From Mesaphorura yosii (taxonomy: Eukaryota > Arthropoda > Collembola > Poduromorpha > Tullbergiidae): DNA of 64,000 nucleotides. Below are positions 9,238 to 62,300 of this stretch, one piece after another (position 1 is the first letter of the stretch; the number at the start of each line of letters is the position of its first letter). Made by a program: the position numbers and the translations under genes. The notes beneath the pieces were generated by a model, which saw only the letters and a program-made list of their open reading frames with translations, had not been told where the DNA came from and did no database searches. Location: assembly GCA_009869945.1 (NCBI GenBank), contig WIXG01000006.1, positions 186,001-250,000 of the forward strand, in the 5' to 3' direction.

Positions 9238-12200
9238 CTAGTTCCAATTGGCATTATTGTAGTTTTGCTCGAAGTATTGCTCTCTGGCAATGGCCAAAGC
9301 TGCAGCGCCCTCGCTGACAATGGGCCCTGGCACTGCGTTGTACTCGTAGCTTTGACCAACACTTGCAGCTCTGTAAAGCTGGCCTGAAGCATCACCAGCG
9401 ATGGTCACGAACTGTTGATTCTGGTAGTGGCCGCCACTAGCCTGAATCTGATGCGGGTAGTAGTACGGAGGTGGGGGTCCGATCTGAGCCGCAACTGATT
9501 TTATGACCGACTGTGTGTTCCATGAATTGTGACCATCCGCACCCACATCAGGACCTTTCTGTGTGTCAACGTTGTCCAGTGCTCCATGAGGGCCCGTGCG
9601 CAGTAGAGTCGAGCAATATTGTTCAGGAATCAGTTCTTGACTGTCAAATGCTGCATTGCTCACTCCTCCAAAGCCAACTGCGCCCGTTTGCTGATAGAAC
9701 AAAGCGGCAGAGGCTCGAACGCCTGCCTGTCCCATCTCTAAGTTCTGTTTAATAAAAAAGTAAATAGAGTGGAATAGTGTCTAAAATTGTTTAGATGACT
9801 GTACCATTGGAATAGAAGACGGAGAAACTTCCCCAGAGAGTCCAGAAGTGGTGACAAAGTTTATTCCCGCCGTAGTGGATGCATTTAACCCAGTGTCCGG
9901 TGTCAATGCGGTCGACTGTTGTATGCCGCTTGAACCCCTCAGCAATGATGTCAAAGTGATCGACTCGTGTGAGTTGTCTTCCAGCGGGGCACTCCACTCG
10001 TCGTCCGCTTCCTCACTGTAATAGCTACCGCTACTTCCAACAGATGTGTACTTGTAGTCATCAGGGTCATCCTTTTCTGCATACGCTTGTGCCAACGCGA
10101 TAGCGGATAAAATTTCACGTTCAGATTTGTCTACAGCTGCCGGAGCCATCTTATCGAAATGCGTTCCTGGAAAATACGGATTTCTAATGAGTAAACTGAT
10201 AGTAGTCTTCAGTGAAATTTGGCATTGGTCGCCTGCTCTCATTTTCGTCCAAAAGCAGTCTGTCAGTCAGTTTTTCTGTCAAGGCCGTCCTAAGCATCGC
10301 ATCGTTTGTTACGATGTATTAGAATGGAAACTTTGTATTTGAAATGAAAAGGAAATTGCAATAATCAGCCAACCAATAAACAAAAATAAATTACGCTCAG
10401 TAAAATAAAAAATAACGAAAACCAAGTCAACCCAAAGCACAGCAAGTATCAAACAGGTGACAATTTTTTCTGCCTGCTTTTGAAGGACAGCGTTTAACAT
10501 TAACTACAATACTTGGAATTCCCTTAACAATGCTTTATAGAATGGATTTTTCTGGTTGGTTGTCTGCAGGGGCATTATTCAATGACTGACTCATCCATCG
10601 CCGCACCGCACAACCCAGTCATATCGGTATCGAGGTCTGAAAAGTGTCAAATGTAAGTTTTACAAGTGCGTACTACAAGCTGAGTGCAATGAGACCAGTC
10701 TTCAGAAAGTGAGAGTTAAATGGAAACTCTCATCAATTCGTTTGCACATACGCGGCTAACTCAGGGAAAAGCTAAAGATGAAATCTGTCGCATTATCAGC
10801 ATATATCTGCCATTGACAATTTCTTGTTTATTGAATGTATGAATCACAATCAAATAGTACGAAAAACAGACACTGCAAGGCTGTGTAGAGAGTTCAGCGA
10901 TTTGTTGAGGCACCTACCTTGGGCTGACCAAGTAGCAGGGCGAGATCCCTGGTCGGAAATCATGAGCAACGAACGTAGCGAAATATTCGACTCGGATTCG
11001 GTCGATGTTGGCACTCCATCTGTTTTGCCGGTGCTGTGCGGGTCCTCCACTTCAATCTTTAGCGGTTTCTTTGGAAATCTCGCCCGATACATCCCGAGAA
11101 GCCGATCCAAGCTCCTTCGACAAGGCGAGCACTTATTGCTCGAAGGAAAGCTCTTGGTTGGAATTCCGTCAACTTCGGATGTACCATTCAATTATATGCC
11201 TTTGTAATTCGTCATAGCTTAAAGCGAAGCATGCGTGGTAATCATAAAAGTATACCTTTGCGTCCATATTCGCCAAAATCAATTGCTCTCTGCAATACTT
11301 TCCTCAGCCTTGCGCGCCTGTTGCTGAACCAAACTGAGACTCTTTGCTCGGTCATGCAATGTTGCCTGGCAATACTTTGTCTGACCTTCAGATCCGGGTA
11401 CTGAGTCAAGTCAAACGCCCTTTCCAGTACTTCCAGCTGAGCCCCTGTGAATTGCGTTCTACCGCGGCGTCTCCTGAACTCGAAAGCACCGACTGGACCG
11501 AAGTCTGTCGAAACTGTTGACTCTGACCCTTCCGATGACAGGACAGACGCATTTCTTCGTCGAGTAATTCTCTTCGGCTGGTACTGAGCGCGTTGTGGAA
11601 CTTCGTTCCCTTCTTGCACTGCCCCGAATCCATTCAGAAAGTGACGCACTTGATTCAGATGTGGGCTTTTGTACAAGCAGAAACTCTTTCGCTTCATTCC
11701 AGTTGAAGTTGCCTTTGCAGACGACGAACCAGCTTTCGTTTCTGAAATTATGGTTAAAGACTTTGAAGGGAGAATTTCGTGCGTACGCGAAGATTTTGGT
11801 GCGTATGACATTATATGCTAGACATTGACAATTCCGCGATATAAAATCCTCCTCGCGTTCCAGAGAATCGCATGAATATTTTGCGTAGTATGTGTAAACA
11901 ACTGCCGTTTTGCTTGGTCTCAGGTCATAACTGGGGAGCCTTGACTCACTTGACTCAAGCATGAGACATTGTCGTGAATAAATTCCGGAAAGAGACAGAC
12001 TTGATGATTTACATGCTTACGATAAAACGAAGCTATTTCCAGTTTCTAAGAATAAATTCTTTCGTCAGATCTCTGAAAGTTGTATTTAAGCGTCAAACCA
12101 AGGTTAATTTGTATACGTTACATCTCAGCACTCGTAAAATTCATCTTCTTGGAAAGTGACTTCCTTTCAATTTTTCTGTGTTGAGACTTCGTGCTCAATT

Positions 12201-13656
12201 TTACGACCGTGTCTTTGTCTTTGTGTGTGATCTCATTACGTAATACTGCGCACTGTGTTCTGATGCGAGATTATAAATTTATCGTAATAAAAGGGTTGGA
12301 TGCTATTGCCGCGTTGCATGCGAAGCGCACATTTTTCACATTTTCACTCTTTTCTCTTGTGCCAACCCTTTTCCTTCACAACACATTACTGCTGACTATT
12401 TGCTCTGTTATCATCTCTTGAATTAATTTCCGTCATTATCAAAAAGTTAACTCCTTTTTAATGCACGTTCGTTGTCTGCTTTGTTCTCACAGTTTTCTTA
12501 AAATTCAAAACGTCCGAGACGATGTAGTATGCGAGTTTACCTAAGCTCTATTTTTGCAAGCCGTGAGTTGAGAAATGAGGCTTACCTTCCTTCTTCGTCT
12601 TTTTGTTTCTTTTGTCTTGCGGTTGTTGAGGAATGAGTTGGTCCGATGCATTTTTTCCGCTCGGGCTTGTCTCATTGCTGTTGCTGTCATTGATGCCATT
12701 TTCCTCCATTTTCTGTGGCGGCTCTGTTTCCTGGATCCTCGGGTTTTGCTGACAAATGATGGAGTTGAGTACTGCTAGCGATGGAGCATTGCGCTGAGTG
12801 CAAAACTTTTCTTGGACCAGGCTGATGCATTGGAACGACATGGCGATGCGTGCAGAAGAAAAAGAAAGGATTTTTCAGCTTGTTGAACTCAATTTGACGA
12901 CTATTCAATTCGGCACGACGCACACCGATTAAATGGTTTTTAGAGGCACGCATTGCCAATTGAAGAATGAACAATGAATGTGTTATACTTTGACGGGCAA
13001 CGACAAACGTGGCTGGAGAAATGAGTGCTACTCGTTCAGATAAAACAAAGTTATAAAACCCATCGAAGAACCATGTCGCCGTCAATAACAAGTGGATGAA
13101 TTTTTACAAATGCGCAATACAATTAAACAATGAGCAGAACGGCGGGAGCCACACAAGTGTCAGGCCAAGACCATAACTCTCACTGTTTTCTTCTTGCTCT
13201 TATCTTAACTTCTTCCGGTTGAGTGCGAATATTGGTGCTTCTACTTAATCGTTCAGATGTTTACAACGATCAAGATTTTTCCGCGCGTCTCAATAGAATC
13301 GTGATAATCGAGGTTCAATTACCTCTTTCGCAGGTCCTGCGATGTAATTTCAGGATTTTCTTGGATGAGCTTGTAAATTTGCTTGTAGACGTCGTGCTCT
13401 TGCCCCAGACTCGTTGATCGTAAGAGCGCCTGCGGTTTGTAGATTGAGACGACCGCTCCCGGGAGAATGCTGCCAGTTTCCTCGTAACGATTCAGAATTT
13501 TTGACACGCACCCATGTGATACACGCAGTATTCTGGAAATGGCACAGGGACGAGTGCCCTCGGATGCCAGTTCGATAATTTTGTGGCGCAGGTGCGTGGG
13601 CAGAGGACGACCGTTAATATATACTCCACCCAACTGATTAAAGCGACTTTGCTGTC
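9238..13656 (-). CDS. divergent Pax3/7-like transcription factor (5' end not found)
   Basis: Six coding exons on the minus strand join in phase: 13656-13323, 12821-12586, 11741-11256, 11172-10918, 10166-9805 and 9744-9238 (about 726 codons). The start of the fourth is the least certain. The first exon carries the PAI part of a paired domain ([14 protein letters not shown] and [20 protein letters not shown]). The second completes the RED part ([16 protein letters not shown]). The third holds a homeodomain ending [11 protein letters not shown], with Ser at position 50 as in Pax proteins. Pax3/7 proteins are nuclear developmental regulators. The usual GGSKP linker after the PAI helices is replaced by VSIYKP, and I see no octapeptide. 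The C-terminus is rich in Ser, Gly, Tyr and Pro. The exon with the initiator Met must lie upstream with a phase-1 donor and was not identified. A Pax-derived paralogue other than true Pax3/7 is possible. Confidence 0.85.
13324..13656 (-). other. paired domain, PAI subdomain exon
   Basis: The translated exon begins [11 protein letters not shown] after a CAACGCAG acceptor and ends at AAAGAG|GTAATT. It contains the DNA-contacting helix-turn-helix of the PAI subdomain, with Pax residues NGRPLP, RPC, ISR and SHGCVSKIL all kept. The next exon starts at a CATCAG acceptor and restores the frame, which confirms that the paired domain is split by an intron of about 500 nt. Confidence 0.85.
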
Positions 13657-16600
13657 CTGCGTTGCAAAAGAATTTGAGTGACTTACGACATAGAATTAAA
13701 AAAGGAACGAGTTCCTCAACTGAGTTTATATTTCTTGTAGTACTGAAGCAAATGACGGAATCGTTTAATCCTTAGCGATAAATCAAGTACGATTTTTCTT
13801 TAAAATATAAGAAACCCATAAAATGAGGACTCACCCCGAAATCTTGGTTCCCGACGTCTACTCTTATGAGCGGATCCAGAAAGGTTTTTGTACATGCTTG
13901 TCAGGATCCGAAGAGAGCGTGAACTTTGACTTCCTGATATGGCGCGACACCACCCGATTGAGTGAATTGGAAACAAAGGGTGTAAGATGCCAGAAACAGG
14001 TGCAGGAACGATTCATAGGTCATGAGGTGTTAAACCATGTCATTGGATTTCATTTCTCATAATTCAGGAAAGAGGAAAGAGAAACGGGATCGGAAGAGCG
14101 ACTTGAAGTTTGTTCGCCTAGATGCCGAGCTTAGAAATTGTGATTGTTACTCCTATTGTAATGATTTTTGTGGCTTGCTCTTTGACTGGAAGATCGTAAA
14201 AACTTGCGTAACCAACCTGCTTTTTAAACATGAGTCACAAAAATGAGACACACATGAGCATTTGAAATGAGCATTCGAATTATCAAAAGCAGACATTTTT
14301 TACGGCGTAAGCCTTAATTTTCACATGTAGTAACTTAAACTCCTTAAAAATAAAGGCAGAGGTCAACAGTGAGTACAAATTGCTAAAATGAAAGGGAGAT
14401 CCCAGTGAAGCATAAAACAAGGAAGTCGTAAAGTAGCATGTTTCGTTGACAGATTTTATGACAAGCCACAAGTGCGTGGTACAAAATTGAGCGTCATTTC
14501 AAGATGCGATTAATAAGCGTATCAATTACTTGTCGTCTTTGTTTAGAATAATAGAGCACGTTCAAGGATAAAAATGATAAAAAGATAAACTGCTGTGACT
14601 TCAAATGCTGGTTTAGCAAGGCTGTCTTTTTAGACAAAGATTTAGTCCATGCAGACAGTACGAGAATGAACTGAAAGATTCTTTGCATTTTGCGCCGTTG
14701 GAGAGCAATTGCCTTTCGAATTGATCATGAATATACATGAAGCAAACATCGGAGCGTCTTTATAGGTAAAGTATTGATGGAACGCCTAAGAAGTTTATAA
14801 TTGCTTATATTATTTATTCTAAAATTTCTTACTTGACCGTATGGCAGTTATCGCTGTAGCCTTAATTGTCTTAACACAGCACTGTCCGTTCTTGATAAGT
14901 TGTGCACTTGTGGTCCTCCTGACTTCCAGTTGTGCAACCAGTTCAGCTTTCGTTTACAGGCAGACGGCTCTCTTTCAGTGTGAACTAAATTCCATCCGAA
15001 AAGCCGATATTAAAATGAGACAAGAAACGCTGCGTCGACAGGTTGTCCACTGTGGTCTCTTGTCCGTGCCACGGTCGAAGTCGCCAACTATAAAGCACGA
15101 GGACAAGGCACGCGTACCTGGCTGGTTCTATGAATGCGACAATTTGAAAGCACCGAGTGCACAAAGAATTGTCTCTGAATGAAAGCTTCGGCCGACTGGA
15201 ATTCTTTTGAACTTGTCAGCACCCTGAAAACATGAATCATGAAATCTAACCACAGTCAAGGAGCAGAAATATGAAATCACAAATGTGTGTAGTTTAAATT
15301 ATGTAAGGCAGAAATGCGTGCTACCGAATTGAATGTAAGTGAGCCAAAGCACGTATGACACACATTAAGCAGTTTCGTTTAGAAAAGTCAACATTTTACT
15401 TAAAACGACAAGACCTGCCTGAAGGGAAGGTCTCGAGCACGAGTCGAAGGTGGAGCGTTTGCTTCGCATGGAGAAAAATCATCTTTCGTCATTCCAGGAA
15501 CCAAGTTAGTTTCATTTTTATCATTCATTGTCATTTCATTTGTCGATCGCTGTTTATGCTGATGCTTCTGAGAATTCTCCAGAAAATTCGCATCTCGTGA
15601 CTGCAAAATATCGTGTTGCAAATGTTTAGAATACCCAATGAACAGAGAGAATGTGAGAAAATAAACGCACTCGCTTGACTTTGGAGTCTCAGCGTGCCTC
15701 ACTCTCAACTCAGTTCCGATTCACATGAAATTTAACAGCCAAACTGTAACTCCGTTTCGAATGCAATTGAGCCTTTCTGTCAGTCGGCATAGTTGTCTTG
15801 ATTTCTCTCGCTTTGAATGACTCTTTACTCTATTTTACTGCACTGGACTTGAACTAGATCCAATAAAATTTCTTCAGAAGAAAACGAAATGCAAAATGCG
15901 AATCACGTAATTCACGAAATTCGTTTTTTAAATGAAAGGATGTGATTTGCGGGACTCGACTGACGAGACCTTGAGGATGCGACAAGTGACCAGCACCTGA
16001 CCTGACACCTGAGCACAAATTTTACCAAAATTCATGATGCAAGGTAGACTAGGCCGTTCGAAAATTCTGATTGGGCACTTGAGCATTGAGTTTCATTACT
16101 TCAATTTTGGTATCTATTTTTAGACAGGAACATGCAAGTCGAAAACTAATTTGCTATGCTCTTAACTAATTCTATTAAATAGAGTATTCCAAGACGAAAG
16201 TGGTCGTGGAGGCATTTTCAAGCAAATCCGTACAGGATGAGTTATCGGGTCAAATCTTCTGGCGAGAATCGGTACTTTTGTGTGGATTACGATCTGATCA
16301 AACCTTATGCCTTTATGTCATAGTGATGAGAATCCATTTGTTGGGAATTGCGTCCGTGCAATAACTACGCCGAAATGTTTTGAGAGATTGAAAAATTCTG
16401 AAAGATTGTTGAATTCGTATGATTTGACATTTGGAGGATTAGAGGAATTCGTAGAAATTGACTCAAAGTAAAAGAAGGTTGCTAATTACGGAACAACTGC
16501 AAGTATCTGCGCGTCGCATTAATTTGAAAAATTGAGATATAACAAAGACTCACGTCTGTTTTGCTCGTCAAGTACTGAGAACTTCTGTTCAGTTTATTAG

Positions 16601-39080: not shown

Positions 39081-40325
39081 TCAGTATTTGATGAGTGGTC
39101 CGCAGCCGGCAATAGGCGCATACACGCAGCGAGCAAGTGTTGGACTGAAGTGGAGACCCTTCGGGCACTCGTACATGAACTCATGGCCATCGTAGCACTG
39201 GTAAAAGCTCTTGCAGCAGTACGGATCTGGAATGATTGCTCCGTCTTCCTTTCGGTGGCAGCTGACCGCTTTTTTGGCGTCCGTTGCAACTCTCAGAGTG
39301 GTTGTGGTTTCCGGAGCCTGGGTTGAGCTGCTGGCGCTATCGATCATCTCTTGATTCAGGTCCATGTACATAATTTGATCTCGGACGCCTCCGTCACGTG
39401 TCACCCCGCCAAACACGTAGATTCGATGCAGTTTGGGAACGTAGACGCAGGTTTGGCCTGACAGTCCGTCTGGAAAGTTCCGCAGATTAACTGGCGTCAA
39501 ATAGTCGTCGTCCATCGCAGGATCCCAACGAGCTGCCTGCCAGGTCTTGCCGCCTTCCCGGAAACGGCCAAACACGTAGATGTAGGTTCCAGTCCACACC
39601 ACACAATCAGGCGCCTTCATAGGCAGTTGCAGACTGAGAAATGAAAAGGTTCCTGACACGATCTCGTACTTGATGATGTGGCGACTTGGGAATGTGCGAC
39701 TCCCAAAAATGTACATGTTCTGTGCTGTCCACGAAGTGTCCAGCACCACATTTGGCGTCTGCATCGGGTACGGAAGCACACCGATCTGGGTCGTCTTGTT
39801 TGCCAGTGTCGAAAACTGATAAATCTTATCTGACTGAGATGCACTCTCCTTACTGTCCCCATCATTACCCGCCCCGCCCCCAATGAAATAGATGTACTCG
39901 CCCTTGTCCCACACAGCGGCTGTCGGGTTGTCCCGGACACTGCCCACCTTCACTGGCTTCAACTCCTTTTGGGAACTGTTCGGGTCGAGCTTCCAGACAT
40001 AACCTTGGGAAGCGTAGTAAATGCACTTCCCAGCCCACGCCGCGACTCCGTTATGCGAGGGAAGAGTCTCTGCTATCGTGACAGCGTTGTCCGTCATGGT
40101 TGAATAGCGAATGATGTCCTCAATGTCGAAGGAAGGATTCACGCCTCCCAACAAGTATATGAAGTCCTGTCCATCGTAGGCACTTGACATGGACTGGGCC
40201 GCTGCTGGTAATCGAGACTTTAAAGTAAAGGCTGTAAATGCTTGGGCTTGGATTGGGGCAACTAAAGCAATGGCGAAGGAAAGTAGGCACAAAATACGCC
40301 CGACTTTTACGATCAATTTTGCCAT
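39081..40325 (-). CDS. secreted Kelch-repeat protein with C-terminal chitin-binding (CBM14) domain
   Basis: A single exon of 414 codons. Residues 1-29 form a signal peptide (basic start, then LCLLSFAIALVAP, cleavage near AQA). Residues about 40-330 contain repeated beta-propeller blades, each with an aromatic/hydrophobic strand before a glycine pair or related turn (YLLGGV, YFIGGG, YIFGS, YVFGRF, YVFGGV). A Thr/Ser-rich linker follows. The last 60 residues form a cysteine-spaced peritrophin-A type domain (SCHRKEDG, YCCKSFYQCYDG, YECPKGLHFSP, RCVYAP, GC). The protein is probably extracellular and bound to chitin of cuticle or gut lining; the ligand of the propeller is unknown. It has no introns, whereas most neighbours have several. 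A retrocopy or a simply intronless family are both possible. Confidence 0.85.
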   Translation of the reverse strand: MAKLIVKVGRILCLLSFAIALVAPIQAQAFTAFTLKSRLPAAAQSMSSAYDGQDFIYLLGGVNPSFDIEDIIRYSTMTDNAVTIAETLPSHNGVAAWAGKCIYYASQGYVWKLDPNSSQKELKPVKVGSVRDNPTAAVWDKGEYIYFIGGGAGNDGDSKESASQSDKIYQFSTLANKTTQIGVLPYPMQTPNVVLDTSWTAQNMYIFGSRTFPSRHIIKYEIVSGTFSFLSLQLPMKAPDCVVWTGTYIYVFGRFREGGKTWQAARWDPAMDDDYLTPVNLRNFPDGLSGQTCVYVPKLHRIYVFGGVTRDGGVRDQIMYMDLNQEMIDSASSSTQAPETTTTLRVATDAKKAVSCHRKEDGAIIPDPYCCKSFYQCYDGHEFMYECPKGLHFSPTLARCVYAPIAGCGPLIKY

Positions 40326-42152
40326 TTTTGAGATTACAAACTACATCGTCTGCAGTCGAGATCGGACTAGTTAAGTGAACGATCTCAGATTCAAGAAATT
40401 TCAAAATCTGATTAATAAAGAGTTGAATGCAGTCACGACTTAAAAGCAACGGGACTTGACGTATTGGGCAAGATCATGACGTGATTTACCTCCTGACATC
40501 AGTCAGACTGCATGAACCAGTTCAACCTCATGTAAAGTTTAGTTCCAGTTGGGTTTGTGTGCCGAGATAAGTTTCAATTAAAATTCTAGGTTTATTCTCA
40601 AGGCAGGCGTCTTAAATGCCGAAATCTCACAAATCTTTCTAGCTTCAAATCTTAACTGCGCCCAGAATTTAAAACATGAAATGACTCCGTTCCTCCTTCT
40701 TCAACGTCCCATCTCTTTGTTTCCTAATAACACCCACTTTGATTGGCTTATGATCGTCCCTGTCTAACTTCCGGCGTTTGGCTTTCGTCCCCGCTGAGTA
40801 TGCAATGAAAATTCTTCAGCACGTAATGGACAGCACTTCTAAATTGCGAAACGCCGTACCAGTTGACTCCATCGCTGCATCTGCTGAGGCACGCTTTTTC
40901 TTCTTAATCAGGTCATCCACCGCGCCAGGCCTACCAGTCGGCTCCGTCGCTGCCTCTGGTGAGTGAGTTGAGACACGTTGTTTCTTATTAATAGGGTCAT
41001 CCACCGGGCCAGGCCATGACACAACTCGCTTCCTAGAATTCTGAAATGACACGTCCGAGCAATAAAAAGTTCTTACGTTACTCGTAGCACGACTAGTCTA
41101 TTGCATTGTAGATACGACTGCCTACTATTCGTTGAATTTAACCTACTCAGAATTGAAGATTTCGATTTCCATCGTATCAGTCCCACTGGGCTTACTTCAA
41201 GTCAAAGTAGTTGGAACAGTGGAATCGTTAATTATCATCCGCTAGGAAGGAAGAAATCAAGAATCAGGACGTGAGACGTGGCAAACAATATGGAAAACGA
41301 TGAGAGAGTCGAAAAGTAGACTTCAATCGATCTTATTACCAGCAATGGGTCAGATGGGCTGATGTTTATTGGAAACGCACTGATCTCGGTTTCGTTAATG
41401 TGCAATTGAGGATCAATTACTTTTATTTAGTGGGACATAAGCTGATTGAGCAGCGCCCTCACGTGGCGTTTTTCCTTCAATTCCGATCTTATAGTGCATG
41501 CCTAAAAAAAAGTTTTCTAAAAATTAAAACTGCAGAGCACATTTAACTTCTATCCAAAGTAAGGATCTGATTAAGCACGAGCATTTGCGTGGCCTTCGCA
41601 ATGCTTTTGTCTTTTCTCACGATGCCCATATTCCATCACTACGAACGTTTTGCCGATCTCATCTATCTGGTGATCATTTCTCATCATGAACAAATACTTT
41701 GTTCGTGTGAAGCCGCAAATGTCTCACGAGCCTCAACGAAGGGAAGCCGACGCTTTTCAAATTTGTGATTTTGCAAACCACACGATCTGATCGTGAGCTT
41801 GATTGACTACGGTTGCGCTTCCACAATCGGAGACTAATTAGGTTTTCATTACAAGTTGTCCAGGTTTAGCTAAAGTTTGCTTGAAGACTTTACTACTGTG
41901 CCACTGCACACAAGTGGCAAATCCATCCGTCATCTGATCCGCCGACTTAACTGTAAGTACTCGGTTTCGGAGCCATTAAAAGTTAAAGACATATTACGAA
42001 TTCTACTAAACGATTAGTTAAAAGTTGCGCCCTAGTTTAACTGATGACCAGTAAGTTGCTCTAGTAAGCCCATATATGGTCATTTTATTATTATTGTTTT
42101 ATATTTCATCAGGATCAGAGCGCCTTGTAGCTCTTCGCTCTTGGAGACATAA
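40326..42152. other. intergenic between divergent Kelch-CBM14 and POP7 genes
   Basis: About 1.8 kb. Apart from the tandem duplication at 40867-41014, no supported feature was seen. It must include the promoters of both flanking genes. Confidence 0.55.
40867..41014 (-). repeat. tandem duplication of about 75 bp
   Basis: Two diverged copies of one unit lie in tandem (40867-40941 and 40942-41014), beginning CTCCATCGCTGC and CTCCGTCGCTGC and ending CATCCACCG(C/G)GCCAGGCC. On the minus strand an open frame of 78 codons (41052-40816) crosses both, giving a repeated peptide with P-G-x-VDD and a basic KKKKR/NKKQR patch. Whether it is translated is unknown; no other exon was linked to it. Confidence 0.6.
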
Positions 42153-51914: not shown

Positions 51915-53732
51915 GTTGAGATTTTTTTTACTTGTTCGTCTGTCATAACTACACAAATGTGCTCGTGTCAATTTTAACTATCATTCAAATAATTGATTCA
52001 TCATTTTAAATTTGATTTGATCTGGCGACTTACAGGTTAGAGATCAGGAGTATCTTTTGAGTCTTTCTGTACAGCTTCTACAACCACACTACGTCAGTCA
52101 GTCATGGAGTTCTATTCATTTAAAAGGAAACCGGCATTAAATTAGATAGGATTCGAGGATTTGTTAATTATGCATCAACTGAACAGCTTACCTTCTTTCT
52201 AGCAGTCTTTAAATAAGTTCAATGTTTCAGAGGAAGCTTTTGAGAGGTAGCTCCAGGAAGTTTAGTCCAGCTGTAGATAGTCTTGCCATCACTGAATGAA
52301 GATCAGCAGTAATGATAGAGATTCAAAATAGCACAAAATTTATCACTGTTACCCTGACTACATTGTCGTTAATGTCTCCAAAGCCGGTGGGAAAATTGCC
52401 TAAAATTTTAGACTCAATGCTGTCCAGTGGACAGAATCGATTAAAAACGAAACGTGCATGAACTCAGACAATCTCAGAGCCCATATGCATTGCGTGCACA
52501 GGGCAACTGAAAGTGAATCAGATGTTTTGCTTGTTTGCTGTTCAAAATGCGTCCCGAAAACACGCGTAAGGATTTGCAAATTCCCGAGACCTCAAGAGAA
52601 CCAACAGAAACTGTACAAAGGTTCATGTCGTGGTACAGTTTTAGTGTTCTGGCAGCGTCATTTCTATACACGTCGCAAATCCGAACTCCTCTGTTGCAAG
52701 GGATCCTGCGACATTGAAAACTCAATTTGTCGACGCCGCAAAATTCTGACGGCTCGAACTAGTGCCACAATTATGGTCAAATTATTCCAGTTATAAGCTT
52801 GAACCTCAACTATGACTATGACTTCGTAGTTTCTTCTTCAAGCTCCAGTATCAAATTGTTCCTCTCCGGGAAAATAACCTCAAAAGCGAGATGTGCATAC
52901 TGTATGAATGAATCAGCGGAGTTCAAGGAAATGCATGTCAAATTGGGTAATTAGGCAAGTATCATTCATTCATACCCCAAATTATGCCAAAGTCGTTGAT
53001 ATGTCGCCCATTTGCTTCTTAATATCGCTACGAGTTTTGCTCTTTGAATCGCGAATCGTCATCCCACTTGAGTACTACTCATGAAGTCAGGGGCTGCTTT
53101 GGAACGGGAGCTGAAACTTCAATCCTGAATCTTGACTTCAGGAGCTGGAAGCAAAAGAATCTGAGCTCAAATACCAAAACCTTTCGCTGCCGATGCAGTT
53201 CCTGCTGCCAAAGTCATTCATCACAAGAAAAACACGTCGACATTGTGACAGGTGGAGGTGACGCCCCTAATTGATACGGGCCTCTTCCCGCCCGCCTGTA
53301 CCTATTAAAGGTCACATAGTAACTCGCGTGTTTTCGAAAGAGTAAACGGCAACAAGGGCAAGAATTGGAGCTGTAACCGTCTCGGCCAGATGAGACTGAC
53401 GAATCTGCTTGCCTTGTGCGAGATTTCATGAACGAATAAGTGCACATTTCTCCACAAAATTCAAATGCAGACAACAACGTTCAACTGAGAGTGATAGATG
53501 CATTGTAATTTGCTGTGCTGCAGAGTTGACAGAGTAGTCACTGGACTGTACTACTTTTCTCATTTTTAATGTATCAGCTTGTAATTGCACTACTTAAGTT
53601 AATGAAGAATGAGTTCGTAAATTCGAGTGGTTATAATTATTTTTCACAGAATTTAAGTGATAACATCAGCGGAAGCTAGAGGCACTGAAAGGTAAGCCAA
53701 ACTTAATTATTAATTGAATTAACCAGATCGAT
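51915..53732. other. intergenic between divergent TMEM60 and PRPF39
   Basis: About 1.8 kb with no supported gene; frames near 52458-52796 and 53044-53477 overlap on both strands and match nothing known to me. It should contain both promoters. Confidence 0.55.
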
Positions 53733-56700
53733 ATGAGGTCATATTATCACTTGCACCACTGGCAGGAAATGGCCAAGAAGAGGAAACCCAAGCCACTGTT
53801 GTCAGTGCAAGGAATTGTCCATCTCAACAATTCCTTTATCCAGCCATCCGAGGAGAGTGGACTGCTGTCGACAGTCGGTGGCGGGCTAGAGAATGCACTC
53901 GTCCTGACGCCAAATTATGGTTATGGAGTTACTGTATCCTCCTTAGATCCGAAGTCACCCAACGAAGACGGCACCTCTACTGAAGAGGGAGAGACTGAGA
54001 GCCTGGTGACTACTAAAGGTACCGAAAAGGTGAACAACGATGCGGATGCGGCCAACAATAACAAGGAAGGAAAAAATGAAAAGGGTGAAGATTTGTCCGT
54101 TGCACAATTAGTCAGAAATATTGGTGGTGGTAAAAATGTGCCCTTATCAAGAAGTGACGTGGTTGAAGACAGAAACATTCCAATGGAACCGGAGAGCGAC
54201 CACGAAGTTGAAATTGATGAGGAGACCCAGGCTCAAACCGACGAGTTTTACGCCAGCATCGGTCGTCCGAATCCTGTGGACACAAAGACGACCAGCGAAA
54301 CAAAATCGCTGAATACGGCAGACGACAGTAACAGCAACAGCCAAGAAGCAGAAACCATTCCTGACAACCAGGCCGATTCAATCCGTGATTACTACAAGAC
54401 TTACTGCAAATATTACTACAGTGCGACTCCTGATCCTCTGAGTGATAAACCACTCGAGTTCAGCTCCTTTATCGATCCTAATGGCGACTCAAATGTTGAT
54501 GAATCTATCTTTGAACTTGCCCGAATGGCACAAAATGCAAGGCGGGCAATGGATGCCGGAATTGCTGCCAAACGAGAAGAAGAACTCAAGAGACTTCGGG
54601 AGGCGAAGAATAAAGAGCAAAGAGACAATGATGCATACGATCCGTTGCCAATGGAAATTGTACAAGACGAGTACGAAGTTATTACCGCTGAGACTATGAC
54701 CACGCTGACGCAATACTGGGACTACGTCAAAGACAATCCCCACGACTTCAATAGATGGACCTATCTGATTCATTATGCGGAAACGATTGTGAGTAATTTC
54801 GACATAGGCAAATGAGTTTTAAGATTTGCGTGTGCATTTTTTCGATCTAGAATAACCTGAACGAATGCCGGAAAGCGTACAGCGCTTTTCTTCCCCTGTT
54901 TCCTTATTGTTTTGGATATTGGAAGAGATACGCCGAAATAGAAAAAGCCCATCATTACTACAACAGGTTGGCTAATCTACTTTGATACAAGGCTCCTAAT
55001 CTGCGGAATGAAAATTATTATTTGGTCGTGTTGCCCTGTTGCAGATCTCTCTTAATACTTGCACGTGGACTAGAATTCACTCCGTTGTCGACTGATCTCT
55101 GCCTAGCCTATCTCAATCTCTTTTGTGAAATCCATACCCATGATAATAATTTTGAAGACATGGTTCGAGAGTAAGTGCAAATTCCAGCCAGTCAGGCTTT
55201 ATATTTTAATTGTATTAATTCGACTTCTTCTGTAGACAATTTCACAAGATTTTGAGAACGGTGGGAATGGAATTTCGAAGCGATGCTATTTGGGAAGCGT
55301 ATATCCTATGGGAAAGTAGCTGGTCAAATTTGAAAAATGTGTTCGGCATTTACAGAAAGCTAATTCAAGTTCCGACCCGTCTTTACAATCGACATTATGA
55401 TAAGTAAGTGCATGAAGTCTATAATAATTCCGCTTAGCAAGGGTAATTCTGTTATAACACATCAGTAATTGTCTCTCGATTCAGTATTCGGGTTCTTGTT
55501 CGTGACCACCATCCAAGAGACTTCCTGAGCAAGCTGGAGTATGAGCGCCTGAGAAAGAGGGGTTGCAAGGCCTTGAACTTCAAGAATAAGGAAGAACCGG
55601 AAATCGAAGTTGGCGAAATCAGAAAGACGACGAAGCCAGAAGATAAGTTGATGGCCTATGTGAAAGAAGCGGTCTTGGAAAAAATTAACGCTGCTCACGA
55701 TAAAACTGAAATTGAAGTCACCAAGCGTTGGACTTTTGAGGACAAGATCAAGCGACCATATTTTCATGTCAAGCCCTTGGACAGAAGACAGCTGAAGAAT
55801 TGGGATGAGTACCTGAACTTTGAAGTTCACGAAGGGAATCATGACAGAATAGTGCTTTTATTTGAACGTTGTATCACTGCATGCGCTCATTACGAGTCAT
55901 ACTGGTGCAAATACGCTCGATACTTGGAAAACTACCACAAAAAGAACACGAAGGAAGTCTCAGTGCACTTTCAGAGGAGTCATATAAATATCGAACTTGT
56001 GTCAAAGAAGGAGACGGAGGAAGAAGAGGCATTGATTGCCGCCGGGATGTCCGCCATCAACTACATGATAACTGAAATTGAAAACGAAGAAAAGTGTGAA
56101 CGACAACTCAGTGATTCCCAAATGATCGTAACTCCTAGCGGTGAGACTGACCGCACAAGTGAAGTGATTGTGTCAAATGTAATGTCAGCAAGAAATGACA
56201 TTCTTAGTGAGTACGGAGAAAAGAGTGGACATGGCCTCGAAGTATCGCAAGTGAGTTTAATTCCAAGTGTAGAGATTGAGCAGTTTCGCCCGGGCAAAGT
56301 GATGGCGTTGACTGAATCGGATCAGGTGAACGTCGTGCCATCCACTGCAAATGGCACACAGACCGAAGACGACAGCATAGTTCTTCCAATGCATTTGGAT
56401 GGCGACCCGTCCATCGGGGACGGATCTCCATCCAAATCTGGAGAACTCCAAACTAATGAAAGTTCGTCTCCCGGTTTCACCTCCCTCCTCAGCGTACCTT
56501 CCTTTCCACCTGCTCGTTTCAATTGGCACGAAGTTGTTAGAGATATTTACAAGCGGGGCAGCATCGTCCACTGCCCGAGGAAACCAACCCTTCGACTTCA
56601 GTGGGCAGCGTATGAGGAAGAGATTGGTAAGACTATTTCAGGTGAAACTTTATCTATAAACATTCAATCTACGTAGACTGAGCCATCCAGATGTGGGAAC

Positions 56701-58001
56701 TAATGGAATGGGTTTGGTGGGTTCTTTGCCATGTGCGAACCGAGAATGACCGCGGTCGTAAGGAGTGCTTTAATGATCACAAAAGCATGTGCTTCCGCCT
56801 ATCTTAGGAAACAAGACAGAAGCGAGGGAGCTCATTCAGCATGTTCTTGAGTGGTTTCCGGAATTACTGGAGGCGAAGCTTCAGATGCTCGAGTTTGAAC
56901 GTCGAAATGGGAGTCAGTCTGACGTAATGAAGTTGTATGAGGAGTACTTGAAAGGTGCCAAGGCCAAAGACGCCTCTTCAATTATGTCGTTGAAATACTC
57001 GCGGTATCTCTTTAAGGTTAGCAAAATCGCGTCTACGCGAGAATGATAATGCGAATACAAACTATATGCTTGTGTCCATCTTAGGAACTGGGCAAAGTTG
57101 ACAAGGCGTTGCTGGTTCTCCGGAAGGCGGTGGCAAAGGACAAGGGAAATGTCCGGTTGTACCGTGCAATTTACAATCTGTGTTACGAACGAGTTCCGTC
57201 GGACAGGAAGGGAGCTCTCGCATCGTTGGAATTGGCAACTCAAAGTAAACATTTGACGAATGAAGAGAAACTGGGCTTTCACAAGCTGAAGGTACTTTTT
57301 CTTCAAGAGCACGGGGAGCTTGGCAAGTATGTTCCGTTCCGCACAGTTTTCCTAACCAAGGCGATCTTTAATCGAGCCTATCTTGCAGGTATCGAGATGC
57401 AATTGACAAATACAACGACTGCAAAGAGATTGTTGACAGAGCGAAGGAAGAGGTACTCCAAGCAAGAGCCTTTGACGTCCCAACACAATTCGAAGCCCAG
57501 AAACCAGCCGAGAGTGTGTTCCTACAACCATTTCCAGTTCCGACTGTGGCCACTGCGTCTCCTAAGAATGCTCAAGAACCAGTGCCCATTAATTTTGAGA
57601 CGGACGCAGACAAGAATAAGACTGTTGAAGTTGCAGACGAACATCCGAGCATGGGACCTGAAGATGAGTACAAAAACGTACCTCCAACACGGGAACTTCT
57701 AGTCACCTTAGACTACGGATACAGTTACAAACATCCGGAACGGAAAATAATTGACAACATAGCGCAGAAGGAGTACGAGTCAATAGAATCTAAAGGCTAC
57801 CCGGAACACCTGAAAGACAAGGAGGGCGAGACAGTGAGCAAGAAGCGCAAGGTAGAAACACCGCTGTACATAGTTGCACCGCGAGGATCGTACCTCATGA
57901 GTTATTTGGGTGGTCCAAACCCGGGAGACAATCCTCCTGTGCCCGGTGGAAGTAATTGCCAAATACCTAAAATACTAACAACATTTCAGTCCAGTAGTTG
58001 A
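53733..58001 (+). CDS. PRPF39: pre-mRNA-processing factor 39 (U1 snRNP-associated)
   Basis: A HAT-repeat scaffold of the U1 snRNP that helps define 5' splice sites in the nucleus. Exons in phase: 53733-54788, 54851-54966, 55045-55170, 55236-55403, 55485-56626, 56808-57016, 57085-57326, 57389-57951 (or to a stop at 58001 if the last intron is not removed). About 1207 aa, nearly twice the human length (about 670). An acidic, Asn/Glu-rich N-terminus of about 300 residues precedes the repeats. Typical HAT segments follow: WDYVKDNPHDFNRWTYLIHY, YWKRYAEIEKAHHYYNR, IWEAYILWESSW, WDEYLNFEVHEGNHDRIVLL, YWCKYARYLE. A 140-residue Ser/Glu/Asp-rich insert (about 56080-56510) splits the array, which resumes with VVRDIYKRGSIVHCPRKP, and the C-terminal part has a KKRKVE nuclear-signal-like motif. 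The next exon (58021) continues in phase into an AlkB domain. Confidence 0.92.
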
Positions 58002-58020
58002 ATTACCTTTCTTCTCTTAG

Positions 58021-59348
58021 GTGTGTACTTGGAGGGAGCTGGGTCGAAGAGAATGAAACTTGAGGTAAGCAGTCACGCAGCCGGTCTCTACTGGATTGAA
58101 ATTTTGGGATTGCAAATTGTGCAGGCTCCGGTTGAAATGTCGCGTTTGATTCTGCCAACAAATGCTCCATGCATAAACGTCCCAGATTGGTTCGTGAATG
58201 AAGGAGGAGAACTTTGTATTAGCGAAACCAAGAAAGGCTATTCCATTCTGAGATACTGGCCACATTTTCTCAACGAAAGTGGGAACGAGGTGAAAGATAC
58301 AGGCCTAAAATTGATACAAATAACTCACCTCCAATGTCCAATTGTGTTGCTTGCAGAGGCTATTTAAAAGCATTCGCCGGGGTGTGAAGTGGCACCAAAA
58401 GCAAATATATATTAATGACAGATGGAGGCCAATGCCTAGATTAATTTCGTGGCTGGGGCCATGCGACTATTCTCACAATGGAATGGTGATTGATAAGTGC
58501 GAAGCCTGGACCCCGGAAATACTGGACCTGCTCCACAGGTGAGGATAATGAAAGTCTAAGAAATTAATCATCGTATTAATTGATTGCATTGGAATATTTC
58601 GTAATTCGAACTGAAAACAACTTTCAGGTTGATAAATCTGAGTCATTATGAATTCAATTCTTGCTCGCTGAATTTGTATCGATCTGGACACGACTCGAAC
58701 GGTTGGCACTCGGATCTTCACAAGGCGCTCGGTTCCAACCCTCCAGTCGCATCAGTTTCACTAGGTACGCATATTTCTGGGTCAGTATTGGCATGAAAGG
58801 TTTGTCTTTAATCCTGTGATGATTCATGCCCAGGTGCCTTGCGATATTTCGAGCTTCGCAAGAAAGGGTATGAACAAAATTTTATTCGATTTCCACTATT
58901 TCCCGGAAGCTTGCTTCTAATGGAGGGCGCCACACAAGAGGATTGGGTTCACCAGGTAATTTCAAAACTTACTAATGCTGCCAACTAACGTGAACAAACA
59001 ACTAAGTAATTAGAAATTTGATTGCAGGTACCAAAGGATCCAACGATTAAGGAGGAACGAATAAACTTGACCTTCAGGGTTATGCATGCAATTGAAATCC
59101 TGGCTACACCTGAAGCTTCAACCAAACCGACAGAGAATGGAGTGAAGTCTTCTGAACCGGTGATTGGGCCTCAGTTGAGTGCAAAAACCAAAAGTATCCT
59201 CTCCTCTACATCTTTAGTCCAAGCCAACAAATCTAAAGGCTCGGAACCAGAAGTAAAGTGTGCTGTCGCCACTTCCAAGTCGTCTGAAGACAAGCCACCG
59301 GCCAAGAAGTCAGCACCGATGATCTCTTTTCGTACGGTGGTGCAGTGA
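58021..59348 (+). CDS. AlkB-family Fe(II)/2-oxoglutarate dioxygenase (ALKBH2/3-like), in phase with PRPF39
   Basis: Oxidative demethylase domain expected to repair or erase N-alkyl bases in DNA or RNA. Exons 58021-58064, 58125-58289, 58357-58538, 58628-58764, 58834-58955 and 59028-59348 join in phase. Catalytic features are intact: HxD in NGWHSDLH, distal His in WVHQVPKD, and the 2-oxoglutarate Arg residues in INLTFR; NLYRSGHDS, VASVSLGALRYFELRKK and SLLLMEGATQ are ALKBH2/3-like. The tail of about 85 residues is Ser/Lys/Thr-rich. Read alone, translation could start at ATG 58053, giving about 310 aa with no obvious extra N-terminal domain. Read from PRPF39, the phase is kept across a 69-nt intron (57952-58020), giving a 1530-aa fusion. 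Whether the enzyme is a fused domain or a second cistron cannot be settled from the sequence. Confidence 0.88.
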
Positions 59349-62300
59349 AGCGAATTATTTCGAGTAGTTAACGAAGTTTCTAAGACTGACTTTTTTAATT
59401 GGTACACAAGAAATCAACTTTGGCCCTTTATTTTTGCATTCGATTAAATCAGCTCATCATTTTATTGCATTTATCTTTCTTTTTACGGGTCATCGAAACA
59501 TTTTTTTGAAAAATCGTACCAAACATAAGGCCTTAATGGAACTCACGGAATGTCAGTTTGTTGTTTCTCGAGCTTCTCGAGTCTCGCTAGCAAGTTTGGT
59601 GGCCAAACCGGCTCGTCTGGCCAAACCAGCACTTTTTTTAAGAATTGACCACGACCGGGGGTATCTGGACCGGAGAAAGCCATTTCGGTGTTGAATAATA
59701 CTATGTCTGCGTATTGATCCAGCTCTGCACTGAACGCCTTGCGCTCAGCCTCTTCCTTCATTAATTGTACAAGCTCTTCCTTATTGGTTTTTGAAGATTC
59801 TTCGTACGACAGAAGAAGAAGATAATCGCTAGAAAAAAATTAGAGATACAACAATCGATTATTAACATTCCATACCAGGGGCTCCATGATTCATATACTA
59901 CGGCAAGATCAAAATATCACTTCAGCCTTGGAGTAAATTGTCGAACCATGAGTAGGCGTGCATGCAGTGCGTGCCGGTCATAAGTACGTAAATAGTACCA
60001 GAGGACATAGAAGGCCGCAGTCAGACTAACAACTGCAATTTGCAAATGATGTCATGTCCCGTGTGCCTGAATCTCAATGCCCCTGAGCCATGTGGAATAA
60101 CATCAAGTACCTTCGTTCTGTTGAAATCCTTCTACGTGATACGCGAATGAATGCTAATGCCAACACATCGGACTATTAATTATTGCATGTGTGTTCCCAG
60201 ACATTTTAAGTACTTTTCTCGAATTTTCAGAACGTAAAATTTGCTCAAGATCCGAACGAGTGCATAAAAATGCAAAGGTGATTCGATGTCGTGTCGGCCT
60301 GTGTCTGAGTCACCAACAAATGGTGCGATTGTCCTTCATGTGCAACTGTGCAGTGCGCGACTCCTTCAATTGCGAAATGTTAGTGTGCAACAAAGTTTAT
60401 GTCACGCAGATCATGTTTGAAGCATAGCACAATAATTATGACGGTAATTATAAGTCGCGAGAAACAAAAGAATTCTCAAATTGCTGGTTGTGAGTTATGA
60501 TGACAGGATGACAAAACTCAAACGAGGAGACGAAGCGAAGGAAAGAAAGGGCGAGGCATGAAACCAACCAGCGGCTGAGCAGTGCTTGTAAATTTAAATA
60601 TTTACAACAAATTCGCAACATAATGGCCAATTAATCAGCCTTGCAAATTTCTTCGGATGTCACACGTCCGCTGGTGCACTCGCATCGCTTCTGGAAATTG
60701 TGGAAATGAGAATTACAAGGCTCGCACTTCAAGTTCGAGGCACGCTTCGCGTAATGCACGATGCAGGATGCACACATGCCGGACATCAACATTTAAGGGC
60801 ATTTTCTATTTACGGAGTGAAACCAACTTTTACTTTCTGATGCCTCACAGAGGCGAGAAACCCAGCGCGTCTCCTGCATCCTACGTGCACAACAATGCAT
60901 GTGGGTTAAGTTCAAGGGAAGAGAAATTAAGCTCTGTTCAAGAAATGTGCGCAAGAAATTTCTGAAGAGATTCCTTTTCAGAAAAGAGGTTAATTTGCTT
61001 GTTCCAAACATCATTCAGTGCAGACGCTACGCACATGGTGATAAGACGGGATTATGGCAGAAGAATCAAGAAAATCAAGAATTTATGGTGTTTCAAACTT
61101 CCGCCACTAAATTTCTATTAAAGCAAACAGGAGATGAATGTCTTCATTTGTTCGTAGTTATCCGGACTATTATCAGCCAATATGACTACCATCTACCTAA
61201 AAGGAACCCTTCTGCGTAAGAGTGGAATTCGACACTTTAATAAAGAGTTTGCAGCAAGCAAACTTCTGTTATAGGTTTCGTCTTTGCTGGTACGACTTTA
61301 ACCCAAAGATCCATACAATCTCAGATTTAACCGCATGTGAATAGAGTGCAGATGTCATTCCTAGATGATTTTTCAGTTGTAACTACAAATTACCAACATT
61401 ATGCGTAATTAGTGAAATGCGGCTCCCTGTATATATGGATAAAAATAAGAATCTGGGTCACATCCAGCGAGAAAAACGACGGGTCAAGTTGGAAAGGCTG
61501 GACTTTGAGACTTTTACTTTTCTGTGAACGCACGGCTAAGTAGATAGACGACAGTTAGACTGGCGACCGATTGAGTGACTTGCGATTGTGTACATATGTA
61601 AGCGATTATTATGATTCTAATCTTCATGGGTTTTCCCTTTTCGAAGAAATTTGGAATGTATCGGCAACAAACTATATTTCACTCTCAAACGCAGACTCGA
61701 AGAATGCATTTTATTATCTTACAATCTGAGACAAAAGTTCGAGACGTGTTTTGTGGATTATGCTGTGAGAAGGCAGACAATTGATAAACGCCGGATCGCG
61801 TTACTTTTTTATTGAGAGGTGAGACGTTCGACTAAAATCTTGCGCATTGGGAAAATTGGCATCATGCCACAGAAAATGGACTAAATGGTACGTACAGTTG
61901 CATTTTTGCTATTGTTAAATAGTCACTTCCGTCAAATATTCCAATTATTCAGTATTCAATTCTTTCGATCATTTTCTTTCTCGTCTTCGTCTAGTCAATT
62001 AAAATTTGCCGATTAGTCAGAAGGCACATTGCATTGACGAGGACAGGGCAAATGCCAAATATCGCACTAAACTCTATGAAACTGTGGGCCCAGTTATGCG
62101 TTTCGTCGGACATTTAGAAATTAAAAGTTATAAATGAAGAGATCTTGACATTTGACGCTCCGTTGCCAAAGCAGTTTCACTTTTTACGCGAAATTGCACA
62201 GTGTGATGCAAAGCGACACCTGACTCGATGCCTCCTTCACACCTTTTAATTGTGCTCACTCGAATAAAACAACGCGACTCCTTTCAAGTCAATTTAAGAC

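Follow-up and report, generated by a model that had tools for sequence, protein, structure and literature searches.

Among the AlkB-type dioxygenases, ALKBH8 carries an RRM and a methyltransferase alongside its AlkB domain. The protein predicted from the Mesaphorura yosii locus described here resembles ALKBH8 in combining an AlkB dioxygenase with other RNA-related domains, but ALKBH8 has no HAT/PRPF39 part. Human PRPF39, for its part, is reported to form a homodimer that binds U1C and mirrors the yeast Prp42/Prp39 pair (PMC5648754). Of the ALKBH proteins, ALKBH2 and ALKBH3 are both reported to be missing from Drosophila and Aedes (PMC6849265), so that retention of ALKBH3 in other arthropods is of some interest in itself. 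A search of the open-licence literature returned neither a PRPF39-ALKBH3 fusion nor any AlkB homolog fused to a splicing factor; as far as could be seen, the fusion predicted here from a single genome would bring two known families together in a new way.

Gene model of the locus

The window is the whole 64,000-nt stretch analyzed, corresponding to positions 186001-250000 of contig C6, and the assembly searched comprises 93.0 Mb in 1127 contigs; coordinates are those of the window unless another contig is named. On the forward strand, 14 exons and 13 GT-AG introns (60 to 181 nt) between 53733 and 59348 give a single open frame of 4593 nt, or 1531 codons including the stop, encoding 1530 amino acids; the exon number, length and continuous frame given in the initial annotation were recovered exactly from the sequence. 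The PRPF39-like part (53733-57951), delimited by frame and splice sites and by domain and structure matches, takes up eight exons, at 53733 (or 53769)-54788, 54851-54966, 55045-55170, 55236-55403, 55485-56626, 56808-57016, 57085-57326 and 57389-57951. The ALKBH3-like part (58021-59348) follows on the same strand in six exons, at 58021-58064, 58125-58289, 58357-58538, 58628-58764, 58834-58955 and 59028-59348, the last of which ends in the stop codon.

The two parts meet at a phase 1 junction intron of 69 nt (57952-58020, GTAATT...CTCTTAG, GC 0.32). The geometry described earlier for this junction is present in all its elements: exon end GAA followed by the donor GTAATT at 57952, an acceptor ...TTCTTCTCTTAG ending at 58020, a stop at 57999-58001 with 19 nt from the stop to the end of the acceptor, and an ATG at 58053. 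The stop lies in frame within the junction intron, which also contains a CTAAC branch-point-like site. Between the intron and 58053, where the ALKBH3 part has its first Met, lies the linker SVYLEGAGSKR (58021-58052), whose first codon is split by the intron; the peptide that spans the junction in the fused model is around PPVPGGSVYLEGAGSK.

At the 5' end, sequence and coding score point to a possible 5'UTR intron at 53692-53766 of the forward strand (GTAAGC...GGCAG), with AAG followed by the donor GTAAGC at 53692 and the acceptor CACTGGCAG ending at 53766. The 12 codons of 53733-53768 score neutral (LLR 0.16); among non-coding open windows 66 of 133 reach this value, and among coding windows 244 of 1462 do not rise above it. 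The adjoining 53769-53816 is coding-like (LLR 6.94), at a level reached by 4 of 63 non-coding windows. Translation may begin at 53769, behind this intron, in which case the protein would have 1518 amino acids.

The PRPF39-like part and a second PRPF39 gene

The N-terminal 1207 residues of the fused protein match the PRP39 HAT families, with HAT_PRP39_N at 3.8e-55 and HAT_PRP39_C at 9.6e-49, both over their curated cut-offs. The best structure match is the PRPF39 chain 6g70 (E 3.2e-101, 343 bits), which we take to be murine PRPF39. In its two HAT domains and in this best match the part is like PRPF39 and yeast Prp39-Prp42. However, a whole-genome protein search revealed another PRPF39 gene, of plain architecture, on contig C91. 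Its 12-exon model of 674 amino acids aligns to residues 18-647 of 6g70, and hence to near the C-terminal end of that chain, with 433 bits, compared with the 343 bits of the fused copy. Given this plain gene, the fused copy is a diverged paralogue and not the genome's sole, canonical PRPF39; the name PRPF39 used in the initial annotation is thus correct for a PRP39-type HAT protein, but does not designate "the" PRPF39, since the C91 protein is the better match to 6g70. The AlkB family search gave no match on C91.

A single MAFFT alignment of the two copies gives 33.7% identity across 667 aligned residues. Five intron positions coincide in both column and phase (343/0, 479/2, 860/1, 930/0 and 1012/2), the PRPF39 part of the fused copy having 7 introns and C91 having 11; these shared positions imply descent of the copy from a gene that already contained introns. 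Unlike PRPF39, the fused copy has a long N-terminus (disordered by eye) and an insert of about 200 residues between its HAT halves, has no clear counterpart of the C-terminal end of the C91 protein, which is a tyrosine- and glutamine-rich tail, and carries an attached ALKBH3 domain. The insert is a low-similarity sequence within the 1142-nt exon 55485-56626 (forward strand) and is absent from C91 PRPF39.

Elsewhere in the assembly, positions 4052-4228 of contig C852 hold 59 residues, adjacent to stops, that share 73% identity with exon 7 of the fused gene. This stretch, which gave no DNA-level match to the window at 1e-3, is probably a pseudogene fragment and is silent on the fusion because it does not cross the junction. 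Weak HAT matches were also seen on contig C372.

The ALKBH3-like part

The C-terminal 323 residues contain a full 2OG-FeII_Oxy_2 domain (2.6e-28, positions 2-194 of 194), and the best matches among solved structures are ALKBH3 chains (2.4e-34, compared with 2.2e-16 for ALKBH2). Alignment with an ALKBH3 chain shows that the Fe(II) HxD...H ligands and the 2-oxoglutarate Arg ligands are kept, in WHSD, VHQVP and the two arginines of ERINLTFR. In AlkB proteins the histidines and aspartate of the first two motifs are the ligands of Fe(II), and the arginines of the third bind 2-oxoglutarate. The enzyme therefore probably binds iron and 2-oxoglutarate. At two other places the alignment departs from ALKBH3, where IRED and HSDDE of the ALKBH3 chain correspond to YIND and HSDLH in the fused protein. 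These motifs presumably contain E123 and D194 of human ALKBH3, acidic residues that help to recognize the base; at the corresponding positions the fused protein has N and L. Because the residues taken to be base-recognizing differ, the substrate range may have changed. The earlier description of the dioxygenase as catalytically intact consequently applies to the iron and 2-oxoglutarate ligands, but not to the presumed substrate-recognizing residues.

The likeness to ALKBH3 thus lies in the complete Pfam domain and in the three motifs on the ligand stretches; the differences are the position behind PRPF39 and a C-terminal extension of about 86 amino acids. The only other AlkB-family matches in the genome are two exons on contig C7, of a different type (context HQDRSED) that we take to be ALKBH1-like. 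No second ALKBH3-like gene was detected in the genome search, which runs exon by exon and so could have missed one.

Splice sites and polyadenylation signals at the junction

Splice sites were scored with a matrix built from 23 introns, 12 of the fused gene and 11 of C91 PRPF39. The junction donor (6.4 bits) tops the 18 GT dinucleotides within 57701-58001 and is mid-range with respect to the 23 real donors; the same GTAATT recurs at the intron starting at 58956, within the ALKBH3 domain. The junction acceptor had been called strong. This is true of its pyrimidine share (0.92, the joint highest among 24 introns), but not of its matrix score, which is only 1.7 bits, with 2 of the 23 real acceptors clearly lower. 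The CTAAC site and the acceptor used in the fusion model have three AGs between them, and competing AG sites at 57990 (2.1 bits) and 57995 (4.2 bits) outscore this acceptor; they would, however, make introns of 38 and 43 nt, and all 23 known introns are at least 60 nt.

How often such an arrangement occurs was gauged by a bridging control, which paired the stop of an open frame with an ATG 20-119 nt downstream, covered both strands of the window, and required splice sites scoring at least as high as those of the junction. Of the 1614 stop-ATG pairs so defined, 33 could be bridged in frame (2.0%), the fused locus being among the set.

A scan for 11 poly(A) hexamers found neither AATAAA nor ATTAAA in 57502-59059. 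The AATAAA at 59060 falls inside the last coding exon, and the ATTAAA at 59443-59448 (forward strand), 95 nt 3' of the ALKBH3 stop, is the sole AATAAA or ATTAAA outside coding sequence in 57502-59650. Weaker poly(A)-like hexamers are found past the stop at 58001, namely AATGAA at 58052 and 58197, CATAAA at 58172 and AAGAAA at 58230.

Coding potential of the tail and linker

The fusion and dicistron models differ over 57952-58001, which is intron in the former and PRPF39 coding sequence in the latter. A score contrasting codon usage with intron triplets was therefore applied to the would-be PRPF39 tail (57951-57998, 16 codons) and to the linker (58023-58052, 10 codons). Training set A consisted of C91 PRPF39 and 11 other long ORFs of the window, trimmed and not all verified as coding; in training B the fused gene was the training set, and C91 PRPF39 and the other ORFs the test set. 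With training A the tail has an LLR of -8.6, a value as low as which is found in none of 1454 coding windows of the fused gene, whereas 60 of 63 non-coding open windows match or exceed it; with training B it has an LLR of -9.9 (0 of 2487 coding windows as low). For the linker the LLR is 5.7 with training A, a level that 5 of 182 non-coding open windows attain, and 5.6 with training B, where 1 of 619 is as high. Because the windows overlap, the counts cannot be treated as independent; base composition contributes to the scores, and the two stretches tested are short. The low score of the tail is not due to its C-terminal position, because the 16 terminal codons at five gene ends, including the fused gene's own final end, score between -0.6 and 7.9 in both trainings. 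The tail at 57951-57998 reads like intron and the linker at 58023-58052 like coding sequence.

One fused gene or two products

A single protein-coding gene in which the PRPF39 paralogue and ALKBH3 are fused is, on the sequence evidence, a highly probable reading, and one transcription unit appears to be the best fit to the splice-site and poly(A) data. The initial annotation had regarded fusion and dicistron as equally visible; the fusion is now favored, with support from the coding test, the bridging control and the lack of AATAAA or ATTAAA. In the dicistron the PRPF39-like protein would stop at 57999, and an ALKBH3 protein starting at 58053 would be freed by spliced-leader trans-splicing at 58020. 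The stop-to-acceptor distance of 19 nt, the pyrimidine-rich acceptor and the usable ATG are consistent with it, and spliced leaders are reported from amphipods and calanoid copepods (PMC5111886 and PMC4664967). Nor does the geometry alone exclude an operon, since the spacer of tunicate operons can be almost nil; the same source states that copepods and amphipods trans-splice, yet that operons are not reported there (PMC7986045). The searches for a leader in M. yosii, which were narrow and run without a positive control, gave no spliced-leader candidate. The Rfam SL1 model had no match at E up to 1, with only 50 of 21707 first-look candidates scored, and a generic pattern of donor plus Sm site had 129 matches, compared with 84 when the control was run in reverse; visual inspection of the matches listed showed no recurring sequence. 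An amphipod-type leader pattern, its form taken from PMC5111886, gave 0 matches, as did the calanoid-copepod leader with up to 3 mismatches (PMC4664967). Above all, the dicistron is disfavored because the would-be PRPF39 tail, up to its stop, does not look coding, and we regard it as improbable.

Two adjacent genes with their own promoters and ends, whose junction would be spliceable by chance, are more improbable still. The 33 bridgeable pairs in the control and the weak poly(A)-like variants past 58001 leave some room for this arrangement, but the gap is without AATAAA or ATTAAA, the acceptor ends only 19 nt after the stop, and the tail is not coding-like. Somewhat less unlikely, though still not what we expect, is a mixed output, mainly fusion mRNA with an additional PRPF39-only or ALKBH3-only product, generated by intron retention, by the alternative acceptors at 57990 and 57995, or by an internal promoter. 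The alternative AGs do exist, and the matched ALKBH3 domain lies wholly 3' of 58053; the ATG there has an A at -3, and free ALKBH3 may be made from it as an additional product. On the other hand, an mRNA retaining the junction intron would have its stop upstream of five further introns, and the alternative introns of 38 and 43 nt are shorter than any of the 23 known.

Other features of the window

On the reverse strand, a PAX domain ORF (13322-13771) and a homeodomain ORF (11242-11817) lie about 1.5 kb apart and are perhaps one Pax gene. A single-ORF protein at 39081-40340, also on the reverse strand, has a kelch motif followed by a chitin-binding Peritrophin-A domain; Kelch_6 is above its cut-off and a larger kelch model just below. 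We know of no other pairing of kelch with Peritrophin-A. Six-frame and repeat scans of the window gave no result bearing on the fusion question. COX1 had no match in the assembly, and the mitochondrial genome is therefore probably missing from it. Domain searches of the assembly suggest an arthropod: Chitin_bind_4 had 66 matches out of 69 candidates. A nematode source, which genome size and trans-splicing had brought into consideration, was set aside, as Col_cuticle_N had 0 matches, a weak negative given that the control genomes had none either. A partial arginine kinase agrees with an arthropod source; it matched single-domain arginine kinase chains, several of the best being crustacean, with 398 to 464 bits, less than the 526 bits for the two-domain arginine kinase 4rf6.

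Discussion

To account for the fused gene, we suggest that PRPF39 was duplicated and that the copy, lying upstream of ALKBH3, diverged. The ancestral copy would have lost its last coding end together with its poly(A) site, and read-through into ALKBH3 would then have been spliced in frame, so that the gene would now yield one protein of about 1520 amino acids, or some 165-170 kDa as estimated from its length. In this protein the HAT repeats might bring the ALKBH3-type 2-oxoglutarate dioxygenase to the U1 snRNP or to pre-mRNA. By analogy to PRPF39 dimers, it could dimerize with itself or with the plain C91 PRPF39, and the tethered dioxygenase could oxidize alkylated or methylated nucleic acid at the U1 snRNP or pre-mRNA. 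This function, which we infer throughout, is the step most likely to be wrong; more simply, the diverged HAT part may have lost U1 binding, with ALKBH3 repair as the role kept.

Our fullest proposal is a tentative one, about which we are more doubtful than confident: a duplicated U1 scaffold would carry an ALKBH3-type dioxygenase whose recognition site has been rewritten, would pair with plain PRPF39 as an animal counterpart of Prp39/Prp42, and would thereby put an oxidative RNA demethylase, perhaps with a new substrate preference, at 5' splice sites. If the protein exists as predicted, M. yosii would have a direct-reversal demethylase covalently linked to a U1 snRNP scaffold, and would offer an animal example of a diverged PRPF39 pair to compare with yeast Prp39/Prp42, as well as a natural test for ALKBH3-type action on pre-mRNA or snRNA at splice sites.
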